Below are positions 43,524 through 54,091 of a DNA stretch of 64,000 nucleotides, one piece after another. Source of the stretch: a virus; the IMG/VR virus record IMGVR_UViG_3300028676_000003, positions 304,550 through 368,549 of that record; one strand, written 5' to 3'. Made by a program: the position numbers and the translations under genes. Under the pieces are notes generated by a model. It did no database searches, had not been told where the DNA came from, and saw only the letters and a program-made list of their open reading frames with translations. The number at the start of each line of letters is the position of its first letter. Positions within the stretch are counted from its first letter, which is position 1.

Positions 43524-45515
43524 ATGATTGAAATTAATGATATCCTACAAGGAAGAATTAGCGTTAATGCTAGTGGTTCTGCGTACTTGGTAAGCCCCGA
43601 TTTACCAAAAGACATTTATCTACACAAGTCTAACACTAACAAAGCGTTACACTTAGATACTGTAAAAATAAGAATAATTGAAGGTAAAGACAATAGTCGT
43701 AAACTTGAAGGTGAAGTAATAGAAATAGTTGAACGTTTTAGAACTGAGTTCGTTGGAGTAATCCAAATAAACGCTAAACATGCTTTCTTCATTCCTGATA
43801 GTAGAAAACTCATCAATGACTTCTTTATTCCAAAAGATAAATTGCTTGGAGCAACTGATGGACAAAAAGTAATTGTTAGACTTACTGAATGGAAAGACGA
43901 TGCCAAGAACCCTAACGGTGAAATTATCCGTATTCTTGGGAACGCTGGTGAACACGAAACTGAAATTCACGCTATCCTTGAAGAATATGGTTTACCATAT
44001 GACTTCGAAGAAGATGTACTTGCCGAAGCTAGAGCAATCCCTATTGAAATCCCACAAGCAGAAATTGACAAGCGTAGAGATATGCGTGATGTTATTACAT
44101 TCACTATCGACCCTGCTGATGCTAAGGATTTCGATGATGCTTTAAGTGTTGAATGGGTTAACGGTGAATTGTTCCTTGGTGTTCACATTGCCGATGTATC
44201 TCACTACTTAAGACCTGATACTGAATTAGATAAAGAAGCCTATGCAAGAGGAACAAGTGTTTATCTTGTTGATAGATGTGTGCCAATGCTTCCTGAGAAC
44301 TTATCAAACGGATTATGTTCGTTAAGACCACATGAAGATAAGTTATGTTTCTCAGCTGTATTCAAGTTGGACCATAACGGAAGTGTTCTTGAAGAGTGGT
44401 TTGGTAAAACAGTAATCAACTCTAATCATAGATTCTCTTATGAGCAAGCTCAAGAAATCATTGAAGCTGAAAAAGGTTCAACAACTCTTATTTACAAACC
44501 AAGAGGTAATGGTCCTTCAATAGGACCACACCACGAAGAAATTGCTAATGTTAACAAATGTTTCCAAGCAATTCGTGACTTGAACAAGATTGCTCAGAAG
44601 ATGCGTAAAGCTCGTCTTAAACATGGTGCCTTATCATTTGATAAACAAGAGGTTAAGTTTGACCTAGATGAAAACAATAAACCTATAGGTATCAAGTTTA
44701 AGACTGCTAAGGATTCTAACAAGCTTATTGAAGAATTTATGCTTCTAGCTAACAAGCATGTTGCACAATTCATCAATAAAAAGGAATTACCTAACGTAAA
44801 CAGGTCTCACGATAAACCTAACGAAGCTAAAGTAGAAGCTCTTAAGGAGTTTGTTAAGCAATTTGGGTATGAAGTGAAGAATTCTAGCCCTGAAGAGACT
44901 ACTAAGTCCCTTAATCAGTTGCTAAAAGACGTTAGAGGTACTGCCGAAGCTGATATGATTGATAATCTAGTAGTAAGAACAATGCAAAAAGCTACATATA
45001 GCACAAAAAACATTGGTCACTACGGTCTTGGGTTCAAAGATTACTCACATTTCACTTCTCCTATTAGAAGATATCCTGATGTAATCATTCATAGACTACT
45101 TGGAATGTATTTAGACACTGAAAGAGTATCTAAAACTGTTCCTAAGATAGAAAAGCTAGAAGGAAGATGCTTACATTTATCTGAAAGAGAGAAAAAAGCA
45201 CAAAAAGCGGAGCGTGATTCAATAAAATACATGCAATGTATCTATATGAGTGAGAATATTGGTAAGGTTTTCCAAGGAATTATCAGTTCTGTAACAGAAT
45301 ATGGTATTTTTGTAGAGATTTTAGAGAATAAATGCGAAGGACTTATCAAATTATCTAATATTGAAGGTGATGCTTATACAGTAGACATGAATAATTATAC
45401 TGTTAAAGGATATAACACTGGTAAAAAGCTTAGACTAGGTGATGTAGTACATGTAATTGTATCTAGTGTTGATATAGAGAAAAAAAATATCAATCTATCA
45501 TTGATTAATTTGTAG
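43524..45515 (+). CDS. rnr: RNase R-like 3'-5' exoribonuclease
   Basis: 663 residues. Two N-terminal cold-shock-type OB segments (DIYLHKSNTNKALHLDTV; FFIPKDKLLGATDGQKVIV), the RNB catalytic domain with the Asp cluster TIDPADAKDFDDAL (about 195-208), HIADVSHYL, MLPENLSNGLCSL and YSHFTSPIRRYPDVIIHR, and a C-terminal S1 domain (FQGIISSVTEYGIFVEI). It degrades structured RNA processively from the 3' end. In bacteria RNase R works with SmpB and tmRNA to remove nonstop mRNAs and all three parts appear in this window. It could also recycle host RNA. Confidence 0.94.
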   Translation: MIEINDILQGRISVNASGSAYLVSPDLPKDIYLHKSNTNKALHLDTVKIRIIEGKDNSRKLEGEVIEIVERFRTEFVGVIQINAKHAFFIPDSRKLINDFFIPKDKLLGATDGQKVIVRLTEWKDDAKNPNGEIIRILGNAGEHETEIHAILEEYGLPYDFEEDVLAEARAIPIEIPQAEIDKRRDMRDVITFTIDPADAKDFDDALSVEWVNGELFLGVHIADVSHYLRPDTELDKEAYARGTSVYLVDRCVPMLPENLSNGLCSLRPHEDKLCFSAVFKLDHNGSVLEEWFGKTVINSNHRFSYEQAQEIIEAEKGSTTLIYKPRGNGPSIGPHHEEIANVNKCFQAIRDLNKIAQKMRKARLKHGALSFDKQEVKFDLDENNKPIGIKFKTAKDSNKLIEEFMLLANKHVAQFINKKELPNVNRSHDKPNEAKVEALKEFVKQFGYEVKNSSPEETTKSLNQLLKDVRGTAEADMIDNLVVRTMQKATYSTKNIGHYGLGFKDYSHFTSPIRRYPDVIIHRLLGMYLDTERVSKTVPKIEKLEGRCLHLSEREKKAQKAERDSIKYMQCIYMSENIGKVFQGIISSVTEYGIFVEILENKCEGLIKLSNIEGDAYTVDMNNYTVKGYNTGKKLRLGDVVHVIVSSVDIEKKNINLSLINL

Positions 45516-45545
45516 AAATAGAGTATATTAGGTAAAAATTTACTT

Positions 45546-46331
45546 ATGATTACTGAAGATACATTTATACTAGATTACTTAGAAAGAAACTTTATTGTTA
45601 GTACAAGCGAATACCACTATTATGTGACTGAAGCGATACCTCAACTAGAACTAAATAAAACATATACCTTTGCTACGTTCCAACAATACTATGAAAAGTT
45701 GTTTACCAAGTCTACTATGTATGTTTTCAATACATGGTTTGAACAGAAAACTAGTGCTTTAGTAAAGGAATTAGAAGACTACGTTGATACGCTTGAAAAT
45801 ACTGATGGTGGACTAGCTATGCTTGATAAGATTATCACTAGGTTTAAAAACCCAAATGGTGTTATTAAATATCATGATAGTTTTATTATGAATTTTTTCG
45901 ATAAGTACTACAGAAAAAAATGGCTTATACCAATGCTTAATGAGCTTAAGGAAACATTTCTTTCCTCACATGGAAAGAGTGCCAGCATGCTTGCAATCGT
46001 AGATAATAAGTTAGAATTCGATACAGAGAGACATAGAGACTATGCTTTCTCATACATAAATGAATGGTATTCAGATGAGATTCTCGGACAACAAATAACT
46101 GCGTTGTTCCGAGAATTTGTCGTTACACTAGGTGAGCGAAATTGGAAGATAACTTGGGTTGGTCATGGACCTGTAACCAAGGAAATAATCGAAGCTCATT
46201 TTAAAGATGAAACTGATTTTCAAAAGAAACTTGTAATGATGAAATTCAACCAATGGTACGAACTAGCAATCATTGAAGCCTCTGAAAGACAGATAAAACA
46301 CAATTTTAATACTGGTTTGTTTGGATATTAA
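45546..46331 (+). CDS. Hypothetical protein, 261 aa
   Basis: Helical, acidic, aromatic-rich; N-terminus (TFILDYLERNFIVSTSEYHY) resembles those at 40152 and 54091. No catalytic motif seen. Its end contains the -33 element of the next promoter. Confidence 0.58.
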   Translation: MITEDTFILDYLERNFIVSTSEYHYYVTEAIPQLELNKTYTFATFQQYYEKLFTKSTMYVFNTWFEQKTSALVKELEDYVDTLENTDGGLAMLDKIITRFKNPNGVIKYHDSFIMNFFDKYYRKKWLIPMLNELKETFLSSHGKSASMLAIVDNKLEFDTERHRDYAFSYINEWYSDEILGQQITALFREFVVTLGERNWKITWVGHGPVTKEIIEAHFKDETDFQKKLVMMKFNQWYELAIIEASERQIKHNFNTGLFGY

Positions 46332-46351
46332 AAAAACATTGTGTACCTTTG
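46321..46351 (+). promoter_or_regulatory. Bacteroidota-type promoter
   Basis: TTG at 46321-46323, 20-base spacer, TACCTTTG at 46344-46351, 20 bases before ATG 46372. Confidence 0.82.
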
Positions 46352-46371
46352 TAATCTAAATACTTAATAAT

Positions 46372-47364
46372 ATGTTTAAAGAAGTTAAAACAATTCAAAG
46401 TTCAGATGAGAATGTTATGAAGCTTGTTTTTGAAAAAGACAACGCTGTAGCTGAAGCAGTATTATACAAATATCCTACCTACGAAGAAAGAACAGTTATC
46501 TGTTGCTCAACTCAAAGCGGTTGTCCTGTAGGTTGTAGATTTTGTGGTGCAGGTGATTACTTCGTAAGGTCACTAAAAGCAGATGAGATAGTTTATCAAG
46601 TAGACTATTGTCTTGAAAGTCAAGGTATTGATGCTTCAAAAATTGAAAAGTTCCAAATCATGGTTATGTCAATGGGTGAACCCCTATTAAACTTCAAGGA
46701 GCTTGAAATCGCATTTGATATTCTTTATGCGAAATACCCTAATGCTAAGTTGCTTATTAGTTCAATCGGCCCACGTGTTGATTATGAACCAATCATGAAA
46801 ATGTGTGAAAGAATCCCTACTGTTGGATTACAATTCTCGGTTCATGAAAGCACTGATGAAAGCAGAGACAAGCTTATTCCTTTTAAAGCAAAATTAACTC
46901 TTAAAGAGATTTCTGAGGTTGGTGAGGTATTCCTAATCAGAACTGGAAGAAAGCCTTACTTCAACTATTGCGCTCACGAGCATAATTCTAGTGAAGAAGA
47001 TGCTAAAAGAATTGGTGAGTTGTTTAACCCTGATGTTTTCGAAGCAACCATTAGTGTTGTGTGTGAACGTGAGGAAAGCATTGCGGCCGCTAACGTAAGA
47101 CAAAGAGAGCTTGCAAGTACCTTTATGGATAATCTAAACAACTTAGGTTTCTCAACAAGAATGTTTGACCCAGCTGGTCAAGATGATATTGGTGGTGGAT
47201 GTGGTCAATTATGGTTTGTTCAATCTTGGATGGAACAGAATCAACACTTGGCTAAGAAGTCTGTAGGTTTTGGAATGGATGTTATTCATGCTCCTACTGC
47301 AACTAATTTGCTACAACAACAAATCCAAGAAGCTATTGCTGTTACTAACTCTTTAATTCAATAA
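46372..47364 (+). CDS. RlmN/Cfr-family radical SAM RNA methyltransferase
   Basis: 330 residues. The CxxxCxxC cluster motif is SGCPVGCRFC (Cys51, 55, 58), followed by VMSMGEPLLNFKE (SAM contact) and, near the end, DDIGGGCGQLW with the conserved acceptor cysteine at about 277. These are the defining parts of enzymes that methylate 23S rRNA A2503 at C2 (RlmN, also some tRNAs at A37) or C8 (Cfr, giving resistance to peptidyl-transferase antibiotics). The two cannot be told apart by eye. A phage copy may modify the ribosome or tRNA during infection. Own promoter. Confidence 0.88.
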   Translation: MFKEVKTIQSSDENVMKLVFEKDNAVAEAVLYKYPTYEERTVICCSTQSGCPVGCRFCGAGDYFVRSLKADEIVYQVDYCLESQGIDASKIEKFQIMVMSMGEPLLNFKELEIAFDILYAKYPNAKLLISSIGPRVDYEPIMKMCERIPTVGLQFSVHESTDESRDKLIPFKAKLTLKEISEVGEVFLIRTGRKPYFNYCAHEHNSSEEDAKRIGELFNPDVFEATISVVCEREESIAAANVRQRELASTFMDNLNNLGFSTRMFDPAGQDDIGGGCGQLWFVQSWMEQNQHLAKKSVGFGMDVIHAPTATNLLQQQIQEAIAVTNSLIQ

Positions 47365-47366
47365 AA

Positions 47367-48833
47367 ATGAATTTACTAGATAAACTAAAGAATTATTTTC
47401 TTTACGCTGATAAATACAAGACTGACTCAGAAGCAGTTATTATCGCATGTTACTTCAACCCACAAAACAATCCTTACAGACTTGAAGCTTTCAATAAGTT
47501 TTATGAGTCTATCAAGCACTTGAACCATCGTATCGTTGAATGTGTGATTGGTGACGCTATGCCACAATTACCTGTTACTCCGTCGATTGCAAGGGTTAAT
47601 ACCAAGGATTTGTTATGGCACAAAGAAGCACTTTTAAATGGTATTATCAAAACTCTACCTAAGAAGTTCAAGTATGTGTTTTGGTTAGATACTGATGTAT
47701 TATTTACCAATAATGATTGGCTTATCCAAGGTGTTGAAGAATTGAAATACAACAATATCATTCAACCATTTGAGTATTGTATTCACTTGGAAGAAGGAGA
47801 AACTAAGCCTAGTTTTGATGTTGCCTTTGAACGCAAGTTTGTTTCAAACCCTGCAATCAGACACCAAAGCATTTGGAGAAGCTTCTGTGCTAATCATCGT
47901 ACAACTGATTTCTCAGATGATACAAACTACGACAAGCACGGTCACGTTGGCTTCGCTTGGGGTGCAAGACGTGAAATCCTTGACAGCATGCCACTTTATG
48001 ATAAAGCACTTATCGGTGGAGCGGACCATATCATTGCTCATGCTTCGGCAGGTCAAATTGGTCACTCTTGTCTTATGAAGTCTTTTACTGAAGATATTGA
48101 TGCTGTTAACGAATGGTGTGAAGATTTTGATTTGCTTATCAATGGTAAGATTAGCTATGTTAAAGGTGACTTGTATCACTTATGGCACGGTGACGTTGCA
48201 AAGCGTCAGTATTTAAAACGTGTTCAAGAGTTTACACCAAAGGCCAAGAAGATTACTAAGAAAGACGAAAACGGACTCTATGTTGCTGACCAATTGGAAG
48301 GTGACAAATACGTTAACGAATACTTTGACCAACGTGAACCTAAGTTTCCAAAGGTTGATACTTCATTCGGTAAGTTATATCCACATGCTCAAGGGTTGCC
48401 AAGTCCAACATTTGATGAATTGATGAGAGAAAGAACTGAGAGATTATATGGCCCAAAAGATTCAAAAATAGAAATAAATAAACCTAAGAAGGAGAAATCT
48501 ATTGGTAGTCCATTTACCCGACCAACAAAACCAACTCATCCAAGACCCATAGATGCTAATATCTCACGTCAAGAATATGTTGAGATACCACAGGATGAAT
48601 TTGGTATTGACCTTACTGACTTTGTTGAAGCAATTATCATTGAAGAGGTTATTGATGATATTTTCAGTGACCCATCAACTGAGTTTGAAAACGGACAAAA
48701 CCAAGAAACTGGATTCGAAGATGGATTTGGTGGCGGTGGTTTCAGCGGTGGTGGTTCAGGTGGAGATTGGAATGAGCCAACACAAGATAATAACGATACT
48801 CAAGACTACACAAGTAGCGACAATTTTTCATAA
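47367..48833 (+). CDS. GT-A-type glycosyltransferase with disordered Gly-rich tail
   Basis: 488 residues. Residues about 20-290 form the GT-A domain: AVIIACYFNPQNNPYRLEA, the DxD-type metal site YVFWLDTDVLFTNND, HVGFAWGARREIL and LYHLWHGDV. The remaining 200 residues are polar and Pro-rich and end with GFGGGGFSGGGSGGDW. The tail resembles a flexible linker or phase-separating segment. Acceptor unknown; phage DNA, virion protein or host surface are possible. Two bases after the RlmN/Cfr gene. Confidence 0.75.
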   Translation: MNLLDKLKNYFLYADKYKTDSEAVIIACYFNPQNNPYRLEAFNKFYESIKHLNHRIVECVIGDAMPQLPVTPSIARVNTKDLLWHKEALLNGIIKTLPKKFKYVFWLDTDVLFTNNDWLIQGVEELKYNNIIQPFEYCIHLEEGETKPSFDVAFERKFVSNPAIRHQSIWRSFCANHRTTDFSDDTNYDKHGHVGFAWGARREILDSMPLYDKALIGGADHIIAHASAGQIGHSCLMKSFTEDIDAVNEWCEDFDLLINGKISYVKGDLYHLWHGDVAKRQYLKRVQEFTPKAKKITKKDENGLYVADQLEGDKYVNEYFDQREPKFPKVDTSFGKLYPHAQGLPSPTFDELMRERTERLYGPKDSKIEINKPKKEKSIGSPFTRPTKPTHPRPIDANISRQEYVEIPQDEFGIDLTDFVEAIIIEEVIDDIFSDPSTEFENGQNQETGFEDGFGGGGFSGGGSGGDWNEPTQDNNDTQDYTSSDNFS

Positions 48834-49513
48834 TGAGAATATTAACAATTAGTGACACTCATAATAAACATAAACAAATCCCATCGGCTTATATAGATAA
48901 TGTCGATGGGAATTTTGATATGATAATACATGCAGGTGACTTTACTGTTGGCGGGTTTCAATTAGAAGCAATAGAATTCCTAGAATGGTTTAGCAAGCTA
49001 CCATTTGAACATAAGATTCTTATCGCTGGAAATCACGACTTCTATTTTGATGAAGCACCTGAATATGCGATAGAAGCCCTGCTTGCACAATACCCTCAGA
49101 TTACCTATTTAAACGACTCAGGTTGTGAGATAAATGGGTTTAAGATTTGGGGTTCACCAATAACTCTTTATTTCCATAATTACGCATTTAACAAGCTTCC
49201 TTGGGACATAAATGAACATTGGGACATGATACCTGATAATACTGATATTCTTGTCACACACGGCCCTATTTGGAGTTATTTGGATTTGATTGATGAAGGT
49301 TATAATAAGGGTTGTGATAGACTACTTGAACACTTGCCAAGGCTCAAGGACCTTAAATTGGTTGTTCACGGACATATCCATGAGGGATATGGGACCGCTG
49401 TAACACCTGAAGGAGTAATGATTGTGAATGCAAGTGTTCTTAACAGACATAACATAATGTGGAACGCACCAATAGGTGTAGAAATAACCAAAAAAGATGG
49501 AAGCGAAGACTAA
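48833..49513 (+). CDS. Calcineurin-like metallophosphoesterase
   Basis: 226 residues. Complete motif set: ISDTHNKH, IHAGDFT, AGNHDFYF, THGPIW, and VVHGHIHEGYG. It resembles the YfcE-like and metallophosphoesterase-domain proteins with unknown substrate. Overlaps the glycosyltransferase stop by one base. Confidence 0.88.
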   Translation: MRILTISDTHNKHKQIPSAYIDNVDGNFDMIIHAGDFTVGGFQLEAIEFLEWFSKLPFEHKILIAGNHDFYFDEAPEYAIEALLAQYPQITYLNDSGCEINGFKIWGSPITLYFHNYAFNKLPWDINEHWDMIPDNTDILVTHGPIWSYLDLIDEGYNKGCDRLLEHLPRLKDLKLVVHGHIHEGYGTAVTPEGVMIVNASVLNRHNIMWNAPIGVEITKKDGSED

Positions 49514-49871
49514 AAAAGAAGTAATAATAAGACTAATGATGGGTAATTATTGGGCACCAACTGAGAATTTGTTGTTCTTGCTTGAACGTGATTTATACAC
49601 CAAGTTTTTCAAGTGTCCTACAAGCATCTTTATATTTGGTATATTAGAGACTTGTCCTCATTTGAGTATTGGTGGGAAACCAGTTGAATTGAGTCTTGAG
49701 GACCTGAAAGAACTGATACCTGAAATCTTATCAGATATGAATGGTTTTGAAACTACCTTTGCTGATGAAGATTGGCAGAACCTAGAAATCATATCAAGTG
49801 TTGATGGGAACTTTGTTAAAAAGAAACTAAACACTACCAAGGCTTATATGATGGAGTTTTTTGAAGATTAA
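49497..49871 (+). CDS. Hypothetical protein, 124 aa
   Basis: Mostly helical with mixed charge (LEDLKELIPEILSDM). Overlaps the phosphoesterase gene by 17 bases. No family recognised. Confidence 0.57.
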   Translation: MEAKTKKEVIIRLMMGNYWAPTENLLFLLERDLYTKFFKCPTSIFIFGILETCPHLSIGGKPVELSLEDLKELIPEILSDMNGFETTFADEDWQNLEIISSVDGNFVKKKLNTTKAYMMEFFED

Positions 49872-49883
49872 ATACTTAAAATT

Positions 49884-50222
49884 ATGAATAGAAAAGACGC
49901 AAAGATTATTGCACAAACGATTTCACTAGCACAACTAGCTGATATGTTTAAAAACGCCAAGGCTGGAATTACAGATTGGAAACAACCAAGTAAGGTTAAC
50001 AAATCAATCACAAAAGGAACCGCTTGGAACGTTTTAACCCAAGGTTTCATTGGTGAAAGCACGATGATTACTTCACCGTCATTAATGGCTAAGAAAAACA
50101 TGATTCATGAATTTGGAGACTTCTTGCCTGAAGAAATAAAATTGGTTAAGCTTAAACCTAAAAAGGGTGATATAGCAATTGTACATCAAGAACCAAAATT
50201 TACAAAGTTTTTCGGAGAATAA
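49884..50222 (+). CDS. Hypothetical protein, 112 aa
   Basis: Basic, with a helical N-terminus (AQLADMFKNAKAGI) and a beta-type end. Last gene before the structured RNA. No family recognised. Confidence 0.57.
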   Translation: MNRKDAKIIAQTISLAQLADMFKNAKAGITDWKQPSKVNKSITKGTAWNVLTQGFIGESTMITSPSLMAKKNMIHEFGDFLPEEIKLVKLKPKKGDIAIVHQEPKFTKFFGE

Positions 50223-50223
50223 C

Positions 50224-50254
50224 TTGTATATGTGAAAAAGGTTTAGTACCTTTG
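50224..50254 (+). promoter_or_regulatory. Bacteroidota-type promoter for a structured RNA
   Basis: TTG at 50224-50226, 20-base spacer, TACCTTTG at 50247-50254. No open reading frame of useful length follows until 50604, so it drives the RNA. Confidence 0.85.
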
Positions 50255-50258
50255 TAAT

Positions 50259-50578
50259 GCGATTTTAGTCAGTTTGGGAACTGGCAGGGGCGGTGGGAGT
50301 CACGCCATTAGAAATTTACTTTTCAGATAGAAAGTTAATGATGTGGTATGCGCACTTACGGCCAGTATACGTCTGGTCGAAAAGTCCTCTGTGATTCGAT
50401 AAGCAAGGACAGACAAAACTAGTAGGTATAAAATCCTATGTACCGCAGTCTATTAGAGGACTATTTAACAACTATCCATCCATTTTGGGGTGTTCATCCA
50501 TCTAAAGATGATATGAAATGTTAGCATACACGGAAAAGGTGACTAACACGTGGGGTTCGAATCCCCACTATGCTACTA
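50259..50578 (+). ncRNA. Structured RNA with tRNA-like 3' domain; candidate tmRNA-like RNA
   Basis: About 320 bases with no credible coding frame. Hairpins include GGCG/CGCC, ACTTTT/GAAAGT, GGCCAG/CTGGTC, AGTCCTCT (50383-50390) with AGAGGACT (50455-50462), and TTCAT-CATC/GATG-ATGAA. The 3' end is a compact tRNA-like unit: acceptor TAGCATA (50522-50528) with TATGCTA (50569-50575), a T-stem GTGGGG/CCCCAC with the canonical TTCGAAT loop (50556-50562), a small CAC/GTG hairpin and no anticodon arm. TTAGTCA at 50265-50271 can pair with TGACTAA at 50540-50546, as helix P2 closes tmRNA. SmpB is encoded 1.8 kb downstream and RNase R upstream. Against a standard tmRNA: no matching acceptor strand at the 5' end and no ALAA-type tag visible. 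Confidence 0.7.
50522..50576 (+). other. tRNA-like structure lacking the anticodon arm
   Basis: A perfect 7-base acceptor stem stacks directly on a 6-base T-stem with TTCGAAT loop. CCA is not encoded (next bases CTA). RNase P could cut before 50522, separating a 5' RNA of about 260 bases, as described for tRNA-like ends of some eukaryotic long RNAs. Confidence 0.65.
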
Positions 50579-50603
50579 TAATGCGCATTAATTAACTTAA
50601 AAA

Positions 50604-51299
50604 ATGAAAATTTTAGCCCTAGGCGATACACATGGACGTGTATTATGGAAAGATATTGTTCAAAAAGAACAAGACTACGACAAAATCATCTTTATTGGTG
50701 ACTATTTTGACTCTCGTGAAGGTGTTTCACCACAAACACAACTTGAAAACTTCAGAGATATCCTTGAATTCAAGAAAAATAACATGGATAAAGTAGTTTT
50801 ATTACTAGGAAACCACGATTTTCACTACTTAAAAGAAGCGCAAGAGAAATATTCTCAGTATCAAATGCCAATGTTCAACCTTTTTAACGATGAAATACAA
50901 CCTGCGGTTGAATATTCACTTGTTCAAGTGTGTTTTGTACATGGTAATTACGTTTTTACACATGCTGGTGTTACAAAAACTTGGGCTACCGACTATAATA
51001 TCGATATAAATGACCTAGAGAACTCAATAAATACTCTTTTATTGGAGAATCCTAGTGCTTTTAGGTTCCATATGGGTACAAATTTCAGTAATAGTGGAGA
51101 TGATAAGGACCAATCACCTATATGGGTGCGTATTCCGTCCTTATTAGCAGACCCCCTACCTGAAGTAACCTATATAGTAGGACATACTACACTACTAGAG
51201 CTTACTATGATACAAAACCTTATAGGTATAGATACCCTAGGTACTACAGGGGAATACCTCATTATTGAAGACAACGTGCCAAGAGCAGAAAAATTATAA
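50604..51299 (+). CDS. Calcineurin-like metallophosphoesterase (PPP-like)
   Basis: 231 residues. ALGDTHGRVLW, FIGDYFDSREG, LLGNHDFHYLKEA, FTHAGVTKTW and YIVGHTT match the serine/threonine phosphatase-like branch, as in lambda phosphatase, with the Gly-Asp-x-x-Asp and GNHD metal motifs. It may remove phosphates from proteins or nucleotides. First gene after the structured RNA, possibly co-transcribed by read-through. Confidence 0.87.
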   Translation: MKILALGDTHGRVLWKDIVQKEQDYDKIIFIGDYFDSREGVSPQTQLENFRDILEFKKNNMDKVVLLLGNHDFHYLKEAQEKYSQYQMPMFNLFNDEIQPAVEYSLVQVCFVHGNYVFTHAGVTKTWATDYNIDINDLENSINTLLLENPSAFRFHMGTNFSNSGDDKDQSPIWVRIPSLLADPLPEVTYIVGHTTLLELTMIQNLIGIDTLGTTGEYLIIEDNVPRAEKL

Positions 51300-51301
51300 A
51301 T

Positions 51302-51490
51302 ATGGATATAGGTAAAAGGATTGACGGTGATATAGGCATAGGTAAAATTCGTAATCGTCTATCTGATGAATCAACAAGACAGGTTATTTACTCTCTTGAT
51401 ATCGATGTTTTCACTGATTTCTTTAACGAATTATACGATGTTGAAGAAATAACGTTAATTATTGAAGAATCATTTGGAATATCAATTTAA
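51302..51490 (+). CDS. MKLG-family-like micro-protein
   Basis: 62 residues, starts MDIGKRIDGDIG and ends ESFGISI. A diverged relative of the MKLGK family, 2 bases after the phosphatase gene. Function unknown. Confidence 0.52.
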   Translation: MDIGKRIDGDIGIGKIRNRLSDESTRQVIYSLDIDVFTDFFNELYDVEEITLIIEESFGISI

Positions 51491-51503
51491 TTTATTACCT
51501 TTG
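51474..51503 (+). promoter_or_regulatory. Bacteroidota-type promoter
   Basis: TTG at 51474-51476, 19-base spacer, TACCTTTG at 51496-51503, 11 bases before ATG 51515. Drives the tandem lipoproteins and probably SmpB and sigma. Confidence 0.78.
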
Positions 51504-51514
51504 TAATCTAAATA

Positions 51515-51865
51515 ATGAACAACATGAAAAAAACACTTATAATTTTAAGCATAATAGCACTTGTTAGCTGTAAAAAGGTACCTAACAATGAACAGACCCT
51601 TGTAATTACTGTTGACGAATACAATCGTCTTAAAGATGGAACAGCTGTTTCATACCCGAAGCCATTCGAATATATCGATTATGATGATTTGATTGAAAAT
51701 GGTAAGAGTGGTATTGTCTTAGGTACTGATGGACATGAATTTATTGTGAATAAAAAAGGTTTTGATAGAGAAACTTTTGTTCATTCTCCTGAGTGTCCAA
51801 AGTGCGAAGCTAAGCTTAAAGAAATCATCTATCAAATTACCAAAGAAAAAGATTCAATAAAATGA
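51515..51865 (+). CDS. Lipoprotein, tandem paralogue 1
   Basis: 116 residues. Signal MKKTLIILSIIALVSC (second ATG, at 51524) with the lipidated Cys followed by Lys-Lys. Shared blocks with the next gene: ITVDEYNRL, YPKPFEY, LGTDGHEFIVNKKGFD and CPKC near the end. The second gene has ISKEEYNQL, YPKHFDL, GSDGHEYLITRSGYN and CKKC. Small envelope lipoproteins in phages often block superinfection, which is a possible role. Confidence 0.72.
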   Translation: MNNMKKTLIILSIIALVSCKKVPNNEQTLVITVDEYNRLKDGTAVSYPKPFEYIDYDDLIENGKSGIVLGTDGHEFIVNKKGFDRETFVHSPECPKCEAKLKEIIYQITKEKDSIK

Positions 51866-52224
51866 GAAAACTATTAATCGCAGTGGCTTTATTAAGCCTT
51901 ATTGGTTGTAGAGAAGAAGATGATAGAACAACAAACAGCGTCACTATCAGCAAAGAAGAATACAATCAACTCAGAAATACAAATGCTGATTACCCTAAAC
52001 ACTTTGACCTTATTGGTTATTCAAGGTTTAATGGTTATGAAAATGCAATCATTATGGGTTCTGATGGTCATGAATACCTTATAACTAGAAGTGGTTATAA
52101 CAATGAATCTCAGAATCACTATATTGAATGTAAGAAATGCATGGCGAAAGAACAACGTATTGAAGAATTATTGATGGAGATTATCAAAAACACATCAAAA
52201 GACTCTACAAGTGTTGTTAGGTAA
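51862..52224 (+). CDS. Lipoprotein, tandem paralogue 2
   Basis: 120 residues. Signal MRKLLIAVALLSLIGC with lipidated Cys16 followed by acidic REEDD, unlike the basic residues in its neighbour; the acidic start may send it to a different envelope face. Domain shared with paralogue 1. ATGA overlap. Confidence 0.72.
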   Translation: MRKLLIAVALLSLIGCREEDDRTTNSVTISKEEYNQLRNTNADYPKHFDLIGYSRFNGYENAIIMGSDGHEYLITRSGYNNESQNHYIECKKCMAKEQRIEELLMEIIKNTSKDSTSVVR

Positions 52225-52381
52225 AGTAGTCACTACTGTAACAATCAGTCATATGCTTGATTTCATTGCAATCTTACCATCAACGGAAAGAAAGAGTCTT
52301 ACAGTTATTGCAGGTAGAGACACTTGGAAAATTGTAATCGATGCTGTTAATATAGGAATAATAACTAGAATAAAATACTAA
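52211..52381 (+). CDS. Possible small protein, 56 aa, non-ATG start
   Basis: An open frame from GTG 52211 (or TTG 52214) reads through to a stop overlapping the smpB ATG. It fills a gap that would otherwise be 156 bases in a genome with almost no gaps. Contains VVTTVTISHMLDFIAILPS and TVIAGRDTWKIVID. ATG only occurs 15 codons in. Confidence 0.4.
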   Translation: MLLGKVVTTVTISHMLDFIAILPSTERKSLTVIAGRDTWKIVIDAVNIGIITRIKY

Positions 52382-52821
52382 TGAAAAGCGTAGCTAAAAA
52401 CAAAAGAGCATATTTCGATTACGAAATTCTCGAAAAATATACAGCAGGGATTCAACTACAAGGTTCAGAAGTTAAATCAATCAAGGCTGGAAAAACATCA
52501 ATAGCTGAGGCTTATTGTTATGTCCACGAAGGTGAACTTTTCATCAAAGGAATGCATGTAACTGAACACAAAGAAGGCGGTAAGTACTATAATCACGAAC
52601 CTTTTAGAGATAAGAAGCTTCTTATGAAGAAGAAAGAAATCGCTAACTTGGACGAAAATGTTGGCCGTAAAGGCTTGACTATTGTACCACTTGACGTTAT
52701 ATTATCTAACACTGGTTTCGTAAAGATAGAAATTGGATTAGCTAAAGGAAAACATAATTATGACAAGCGTAACTCTTTGAAAGAGAAAGACTTGAAACGT
52801 GAAATTGAACGAAATTCGTAA
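52381..52821 (+). CDS. smpB: SsrA-binding protein SmpB
   Basis: 146 residues, normal length. NKRAYFDYEILEKYTAGIQL, LQGSEVKSIKAGKTSI, EAYCYVHEGELFIKGMHV, the DKKLLMKKKEI helix, KGLTIVPLDV and KIEIGLAKGKHNYDKR follow bacterial SmpB throughout, including the C-terminal KGK...DKR...KKDxKR tail (here SLKEKDLKREIERN) that reads the empty mRNA channel. SmpB delivers tmRNA to ribosomes stalled on truncated messages. A phage copy is unusual and, with RNase R and the tRNA-like RNA at 50259, suggests a phage-run rescue system. Confidence 0.95.
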   Translation: MKSVAKNKRAYFDYEILEKYTAGIQLQGSEVKSIKAGKTSIAEAYCYVHEGELFIKGMHVTEHKEGGKYYNHEPFRDKKLLMKKKEIANLDENVGRKGLTIVPLDVILSNTGFVKIEIGLAKGKHNYDKRNSLKEKDLKREIERNS

Positions 52822-53179: not shown

Positions 53180-54091
53180 ATGAAACAAATCAAAATTTCG
53201 CATAAACTTACTGATAGAAGTAACGAAGCTTTTAAACAATACTTAAGAGAAATTGCGGATATAGAACCTTTTACCCCTGAAGAAGAATTGGTTTGCGCTC
53301 AAAAAGCCTTTGCTGGTGATAAAAAAGCACAAAAAGAATTAGCGAAAAGAAACCTACGTTTCGTTGTGAGTGTTGCTAAGCAATACGTTACAGATTCTTT
53401 ATATCTATCTGACCTAGTGGAAGAAGGAAACATTGGAATCCTTATTGCGGCTGAAAAGTTTGACCCAAGCAAAGGATATAAGTTTATTTCGTTTGCTGTA
53501 TGGTGGATTAGAAAGATAATCCTTGAACACATTGCCAAGCATGGTAAGATTGTTCGTTTACCTGCCAATAAGCTTAACGCAATGTCAAAGCTTGATAAAC
53601 AATTTGCAGAATTGGAACAAAAGACTGGTCGTAAGGTAGATGTAATGGAAGTTATTGCCGAGTTTGGTAGCAACTCCGATGCCTACAATACCCAACAAGA
53701 CGAGTTTAAGGAGTTTATGTTCTTGGATTCATTAGGTTCAATGAACACAGATTCGCTAGACCGTCAGATTGGTAATGAAGACAACGGTGGAACTAGTACC
53801 CTTGCTGAGATGATGAGTGATGATATGTTTAAATCTACAGACCACTTAATCACAGACAAGAACATCATCGATGAAATCAATATTGCTCTTGAAACACTTA
53901 AGCCTCGTGAGAAGAGAATCATTGAATCATTCTTTGGTTTAAATGACCAAAAGGTTATGACACTTAAGGAATTAGGTGAAGATGATGGAATCAGAGTAAC
54001 ACGTGAAATGGTTCGTCAAATTAAAAATAAGACGCTTAAAGCGTTACAAAATAATCCTAGGATTAGACAAGCATATGAGTCAATGAACTAA
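53180..54091 (+). CDS. Sigma-70 family RNA polymerase sigma factor (RpoD/SigA-like)
   Basis: 303 residues, close to the Bacteroidota housekeeping sigma (about 285-290). Region 1.2 (FKQYLREIADIEPFTPEEE), region 2 (NLRFVVSVAKQYV, LVEEGNIGILIAAEKFD, FISFAVWWIRKII), region 3 (IVRLPANKL) and region 4 with its HTH (LKPREKRIIESFFGL, TREMVRQIKNKTLKAL) are all there. Such a factor would recognise the same TTG/TAnnTTTG promoters found before many genes here. It could keep host polymerase on phage promoters after the host sigma is displaced. Confidence 0.95.
   Translation: MKQIKISHKLTDRSNEAFKQYLREIADIEPFTPEEELVCAQKAFAGDKKAQKELAKRNLRFVVSVAKQYVTDSLYLSDLVEEGNIGILIAAEKFDPSKGYKFISFAVWWIRKIILEHIAKHGKIVRLPANKLNAMSKLDKQFAELEQKTGRKVDVMEVIAEFGSNSDAYNTQQDEFKEFMFLDSLGSMNTDSLDRQIGNEDNGGTSTLAEMMSDDMFKSTDHLITDKNIIDEINIALETLKPREKRIIESFFGLNDQKVMTLKELGEDDGIRVTREMVRQIKNKTLKALQNNPRIRQAYESMN

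Follow-up and report, generated by a model that had tools for sequence, protein, structure and literature searches.

The phage record analysed here (G000; linear, 368,549 bases), whose last 64 kb constitute the window under study, encodes both partners of a putative trans-translation system: a complete SmpB within the window and a full-length transfer-messenger RNA (tmRNA) located about 133 kb upstream of smpB. With a probability of roughly 0.7, we consider that this distant pair acts in trans-translation, that the RNase R also encoded in the window clears the broken mRNA, and that the RNA found between the RNase R gene (rnr) and smpB, at window positions 50259-50578, is a separate entity related to the tRNA arrays of kindred phages. 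The latter RNA, regarded as the tmRNA in an earlier note on this DNA, is neither a tmRNA nor an ordinary tRNA. All functions discussed below were inferred from sequence, and the related records used for comparison (G001, G014, L001, L035, L038, L042, L063 and others) are metagenome assemblies. Because tmRNA, smpB and rnr share one contig in G000 and likewise in G001, a chimera is unlikely. Coordinates bearing the prefix C1 are those of the whole G000 record, outside the window numbering, and L021 designates a stretch of G000.

The distant tmRNA, SmpB and RNase R

A single full-length tmRNA exceeds the cut-off in the whole record, at C1:223383-223757 (RF00023, 66 bits against 47, model positions 1-374). 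It is a free-standing gene, preceded at about 80 bases by a promoter of its own. The same tmRNA type occurs in G001 (44.4 bits, just below the cut-off of 47) and in G014 (72.4 bits); sequence blocks common to all three are distributed along the whole length of the molecule, and smpB is present in all three records. The acceptor stems (GGGGATG/CATCTCC, GGGGCAT/ATGCTCC and GGGGTTG/CAGCTCC) vary at positions 5-7 while pairing is preserved, which is covariation, and each contains the G3-U70 pair, the mark of alanine identity. The tag frames, whose start at the resume codon GAC was deduced from the Rfam alignment, comprise 25 codons followed by TAA in each phage (DNDLFVSENFFDEAVMVSTRELAVA, DNDFIVSENFLNEAVMVSTGELATV and DNDFIVSENFLDEAVMVSNGELAVA) and conform to a shared type, DNDxxVSENFxxEAVMVSxxELxxx, that ends in ELAVA or ELATV rather than ALAA. 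Among the five Bacteroidales tmRNAs fetched, four encode GENNYALAA, GETNYALAA or GEDNYALAA; the tag of the fifth is ATHSLLNFQGKLA according to ARAGORN.

The relevant genes of the window are as follows:

43524-45515, + strand: RNase R core of 663 residues with cold-shock, RNB and S1 domains (TIGR02063; alignment to 8cdu)
46372-47364, + strand: RlmN/Cfr-like radical SAM protein, a neighbour gene (RlmN, 101 bits, under the cut-off of 290)
50604-51299, + strand: metallophosphoesterase, directly 3' of the RNA at 50259-50578 (homologues sit after the tRNA arrays of relatives and before smpB)
52381-52821, + strand: SmpB of 146 residues, with a GKxxYDKR motif and a short C-terminal tail whose last residues are REIERNS (profile matches, alignments)
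53180-54091, + strand: sigma-70 family factor, a conserved neighbour of smpB (profile matches, gene order)

The earlier note had announced a complete SmpB and a complete RNase R-like enzyme, and profile searches bear out both. SmpB scores 179.5 bits against TIGR00086 (cut-off 119.1), 184.2 bits against PRK05422 (cut-off 130) and 4e-54 in Pfam. Its C-terminal tail opens with the KGK and DKR motifs (GKHNYDKR), as an alignment to SmpBs of solved structure and to ten relatives shows. In the species collection, the cellular proteins closest to it come from Bacteroidales (50-57% identity), which fits the Bacteroidota-type promoters (TAnnTTTG) of the window. L035 (9750-9845) and the record of L038 (G011:71144-71230) encode, upstream of the full smpB, an additional truncated copy of its N-terminus (about 29-32 residues).

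RNase R reaches 699.9 bits against TIGR02063, whose curated cut-off is 597.85, and 6e-110 for the Pfam RNB domain. Its best solved-structure match is the RNase R 8cdu, of which it covers residues 70-708 out of 779, residue 661 of the phage protein pairing with residue 708; the phage enzyme thus stops with the S1 domain and lacks the N-terminal helix-turn-helix region. The rnr gene lies upstream of smpB in G000, G001 and G014. At least 10 distinct related contigs share one gene order, in which rnr is followed by an uncharacterised gene, a glycosyltransferase-like gene, two successive metallophosphoesterase genes, smpB and the sigma factor gene. The RlmN/Cfr-like enzyme encoded beside RNase R is a possible ribosome or tRNA modifier. 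Matches for rnr and smpB in Firmicute 'phages' (Listeria, Staphylococcus, Enterococcus), apparently the flanks of bacterial rnr-smpB-ssrA, were left out of the phage systems.

Trans-translation carried out by the phage pair best accounts for these observations and is well supported, as the RNA, SmpB, the G3-U70 pair, the tag and a CCA-adding enzyme all occur here and are of a conserved kind. The tmRNA would be cut out like a tRNA, completed with CCA by the phage-encoded enzyme and charged with alanine through G3-U70. Bound by the phage SmpB, the charged molecule would enter stalled ribosomes and add a 25-residue tag of the phage type, thereby freeing ribosomes halted on transcripts that host or phage nucleases have broken. 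Removal of these broken transcripts would fall to RNase R, whose gene is maintained upstream in a fixed order.

Several features of the three components weigh against this scheme. A73 is usual in tmRNA, and the phage molecule carries U73 (U73-CAA) instead; CCA is not encoded and would therefore need adding, and the phage possesses such an enzyme (C1:230731-231099). The SmpBs of the window and of four relatives end 2-5 residues before those of Bacteroidales and of Lak phages (REIERNS in the window, compared with tails extending further to DRIRKNF or DRVMKNFN), and they are devoid of the hydrophobic-x-K-N ending of the latter. In E. coli, truncation of the SmpB tail abolishes tmRNA activity while tmRNA binding is retained (PMC4151336). 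These five shortened SmpBs, the behaviour of such mutants and the ELAVA or ELATV ends of the phage tags could also be read as signs that phage SmpB and tmRNA oppose host rescue, either through a short-tailed SmpB that binds tmRNA yet blocks tagging, or through a long tag that diverts proteins from host proteases. We judge such an antagonism improbable, since SmpB misses its last residues only and keeps DKR, and a tag frame that is never translated would not persist in three phages.

The place of RNase R in the scheme is a separate matter. The phage enzyme lacks the C-terminal Lys-rich tail when aligned to 8cdu, and this tail is required in E. coli for the recruitment of RNase R to tmRNA-rescued ribosomes (PMC3949413). 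Gene order is therefore what ties the phage RNase R to rescue, and its membership in the trans-translation set, suggested by the conservation of that order, is putative. A role apart from rescue, in general RNA turnover such as the decay of structured host or phage RNA, is a serious contender that we place somewhat below even odds; the fixed order of rnr and smpB in at least 10 related contigs argues against it. Hence, the complete phage-encoded rescue set put forward in the earlier note holds for SmpB and for a genuine tmRNA on the same record, loses the window RNA as its RNA component, and keeps RNase R as a candidate member.

The tRNA-ended RNA between rnr and smpB

The RNA of the window is composed of the following elements:

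50224-50254, + strand: Bacteroidota-type promoter TTG-N20-TAnnTTTG preceding the RNA (pattern match)
50259-50578, + strand: non-coding RNA with a mini tRNA at its 3' end (promoter, T-arm, likeness to L001 at the 5' end)
50268-50285, + strand: hairpin of 7 base pairs, GTCAGTT-TGGG-AACTGGC, common to L001 (sequence, blastn)
50360-50378, + strand: hairpin GGCCAG-TATACGT-CTGGTC (direct sequence reading)
50522-50575, + strand: mini tRNA with a 7-base-pair acceptor, a 3-base-pair hairpin and a T-arm, without D arm, anticodon arm or G3-U70 (sequence, fold)

The description of this locus as a promoter-driven structured RNA is partly upheld. A promoter, a T-arm and an acceptor-like stem are present; the fold of the whole 323-nucleotide RNA is not unusually stable (z = -1.56, with 7 of 100 shuffles equally good). 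Given that the + strand of the window contains 23 such promoter sites, against about 3 in shuffles, the single site before the RNA constitutes modest evidence. The T-arm (GTGGGG-TTCGAAT-CCCCAC, 50550-50568) is perfect and is enclosed by the acceptor-like stem TAGCATA/TATGCTA (50522-50528 and 50569-50575), the linker measuring about 21 nucleotides compared with about 41 in a tRNA. Mini tRNA units of this kind occur twice in the whole 368.5-kb record and never in shuffles. The second one (C1:285644-285687, L021 17645-17688), located directly behind a small open reading frame, consists of a 7-base-pair acceptor, a 13-nucleotide linker and a T-arm, and shares with the first an ACTA end.

Its T-arm, its acceptor-like stem and its position between rnr and smpB could designate the window RNA as a very divergent tmRNA or as another SmpB partner. 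We regard this as highly implausible. ARAGORN finds no tRNA or tmRNA gene at 50259-50578, and no Rfam family exceeds its cut-off anywhere in the window; a lax RF00023 search yields 12 bits against 47, on 15 nucleotides of the T-arm only. Pair 3 of the acceptor is C-G or G-C depending on the register, hence not G3-U70, and translation of the RNA in three frames yields no tag comparable to those of the related phages. The D and anticodon arms of a cloverleaf are missing according to ARAGORN, Rfam and the 21-nucleotide linker. Furthermore, a true tmRNA exists on the same record, and in at least 10 other related contigs rnr and smpB are retained although this place is devoid of a T-arm, an outcome that the earlier note itself had named as refuting its proposal. 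Two other identities were rejected. In a permuted, two-piece tmRNA the coding part would follow the T-arm, and a conserved protein gene begins 26 nucleotides past the RNA. The other was a tRNA split by a single large intron: the 5' segment GCGATTTTAGTCA...TGGC looks like the beginning of a tRNA, but its acceptor is not complementary to the one at the 3' end; ARAGORN allowing introns returned nothing at normal thresholds and chance-like matches at relaxed ones.

A different origin is suggested by the related phages. In L001, L035, L038, L042 and L063, a non-coding tRNA array under one promoter immediately precedes the same metallophosphoesterase gene, and the window RNA occupies the position of this array. 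Its first 38 nucleotides match L001 7161-7198 (blastn, 81.6%, E 4e-4). About 95 nucleotides downstream, the hairpin at 50360-50378 resembles TGCCAG/CTGGCA of L001 and TACCAG/CTGGTG of L035 and L038, the core being kept and the first two pairs exchanged on both sides. The window RNA is likeliest a transcript derived from a tRNA array, either ending in a mini tRNA that host RNase P and RNase Z would cut, or persisting as a decayed remnant. If functional, it would be a short relative of the array transcripts with its own promoter and an armless mini tRNA end; recognition and cleavage of this end by the two host enzymes would release a stable 260-nucleotide RNA and free the downstream mRNA. Decay into a transcribed leftover deprived of function is quite conceivable, although we hold it short of an even chance: the array position, the single T-arm left and the resemblance to the unit L001 7490-7658 minus its centre speak for it, while the perfection of the T-arm and of seven contiguous acceptor pairs, the retention of a promoter and the existence of a second mini tRNA in the genome speak against it. 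The derivation from an array meets difficulties of its own. In the standard register, the acceptor stem contains a C-C mismatch, and including this stem costs the fold 1.7 kcal/mol relative to the optimum. The window RNA and L001 have only short stretches in common. Moreover, close relatives that would allow covariation to be assessed were found neither by blastn against public phages, which gave no match, nor by a 20-base pattern scan of IMG/VR, which retrieved only L001.

The arrays themselves (L001 6857-9256, L035 5094-6974, L042 5900-6990, and also in L038) contain tRNAs that bear an insert in either the D-loop or the anticodon loop, together with structured and strongly conserved spacers. 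Between L001 and L035, the array regions share 88% identity over 492 nucleotides and 79% over 447 nucleotides, above the identity of their proteins, and the spacers must therefore be constrained too. Several array tRNAs measure 62-172 nucleotides from acceptor to T-arm, compared with about 41, indicating that they carry inserts. A tRNA with a UUUAG anticodon loop (L001 8783-8882, L035 6507-6605, L042 6273-6372, L063 6274-6373, and also in L038) bears a 23-nucleotide insert in which CUA pairs with UAG; compensatory changes affect both the insert hairpin (CCC/GGG to CCA/UGG) and the anticodon stem (C-G to U-A). In G000, 63 tRNA matches exceed the Rfam cut-off, several of them repeating the same anticodon, and two tRNA-like units (L021 10913-11060 and 11733-11862) span 116 and 99 nucleotides from acceptor to T-arm, probably owing to large D-loop inserts. 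Two genes of the RNA ligase family (PF09414; 91.8 and 51.1 bits), at about 1859-2368 of the window and at C1:253976-254566, are candidates for tRNA repair or splicing. The RtcB ligase, sought as a splicing factor for insert-bearing tRNAs, is absent from all eight records searched.

Significance and relation to known systems

Ribosomes stall both when phages cleave host mRNA and when certain bacterial defences cleave RNA. With a tmRNA, an SmpB and perhaps an exonuclease of its own, a phage could sustain translation and decide the fate of unfinished proteins. Given that the long conserved tag is unlike the host tag, the purpose of a phage tag becomes directly testable. For genome annotation, T-arm-ended RNAs in the tRNA arrays of huge phages should not be taken as evidence of tmRNA. 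On a more speculative and rather unlikely view, these phages would form a huge-phage lineage whose trans-translation has been re-tuned, by the 25-residue tag, U73 and the changed end of the SmpB tail, to mark stalled proteins with a signal unlike the host ALAA tag and thereby redirect their fate during infection, and the armless mini tRNA end would be a new RNA processing element. In the part of the literature covered, we found no paper on the 25-residue tag type with U73, on the modified SmpB C-terminus, on the rnr-smpB gene arrangement or on the tRNA-ended RNA without arms, and all four appear to be new.

In mascRNA/menRNA (RF01684), RNase P cleaves at a 3' end resembling a tRNA, and the window RNA is similar in being a longer non-coding RNA that carries a tRNA-like element on its 3' side; its match to RF01684 is weak (15.7 bits against 42.5) and no homology is claimed. 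Genes for tmRNA are known in Bacillus phage G and in mycobacteriophages Bxz1, Catera, Wildcat and DS6A, the last of which has a tmRNA reduced to hardly more than its tRNA-like domain (PMC4131195). The mini tRNA of the window is of a different kind, with no tmRNA match past the T-arm and no G3-U70. Lak phages, which are huge phages of Bacteroidota, have many tRNAs and enigmatic introns, and some of these inserts may hold tRNA (Devoto et al., 2019; PMC6784885). By comparison, the arrays of L001 and L035 group several insert-bearing tRNAs and conserved structured spacers under one promoter, and the window copy retains a single armless unit. Finally, tmRNA and SmpB of huge phages have been described (Al-Shayeb et al., 2020; PMC7162821), and we confirmed smpB together with a full-length tmRNA over the RF00023 cut-off in LR756504, Lak-A1 and Lak-B1. 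The tag of LR756504 appears to be long (NDNVNSFEQSILNELFAPVEMAVAA), as in the clade studied here, which differs from the huge phages of that report by its conserved tag type, its U73, its short SmpB tail and its rnr-smpB synteny.

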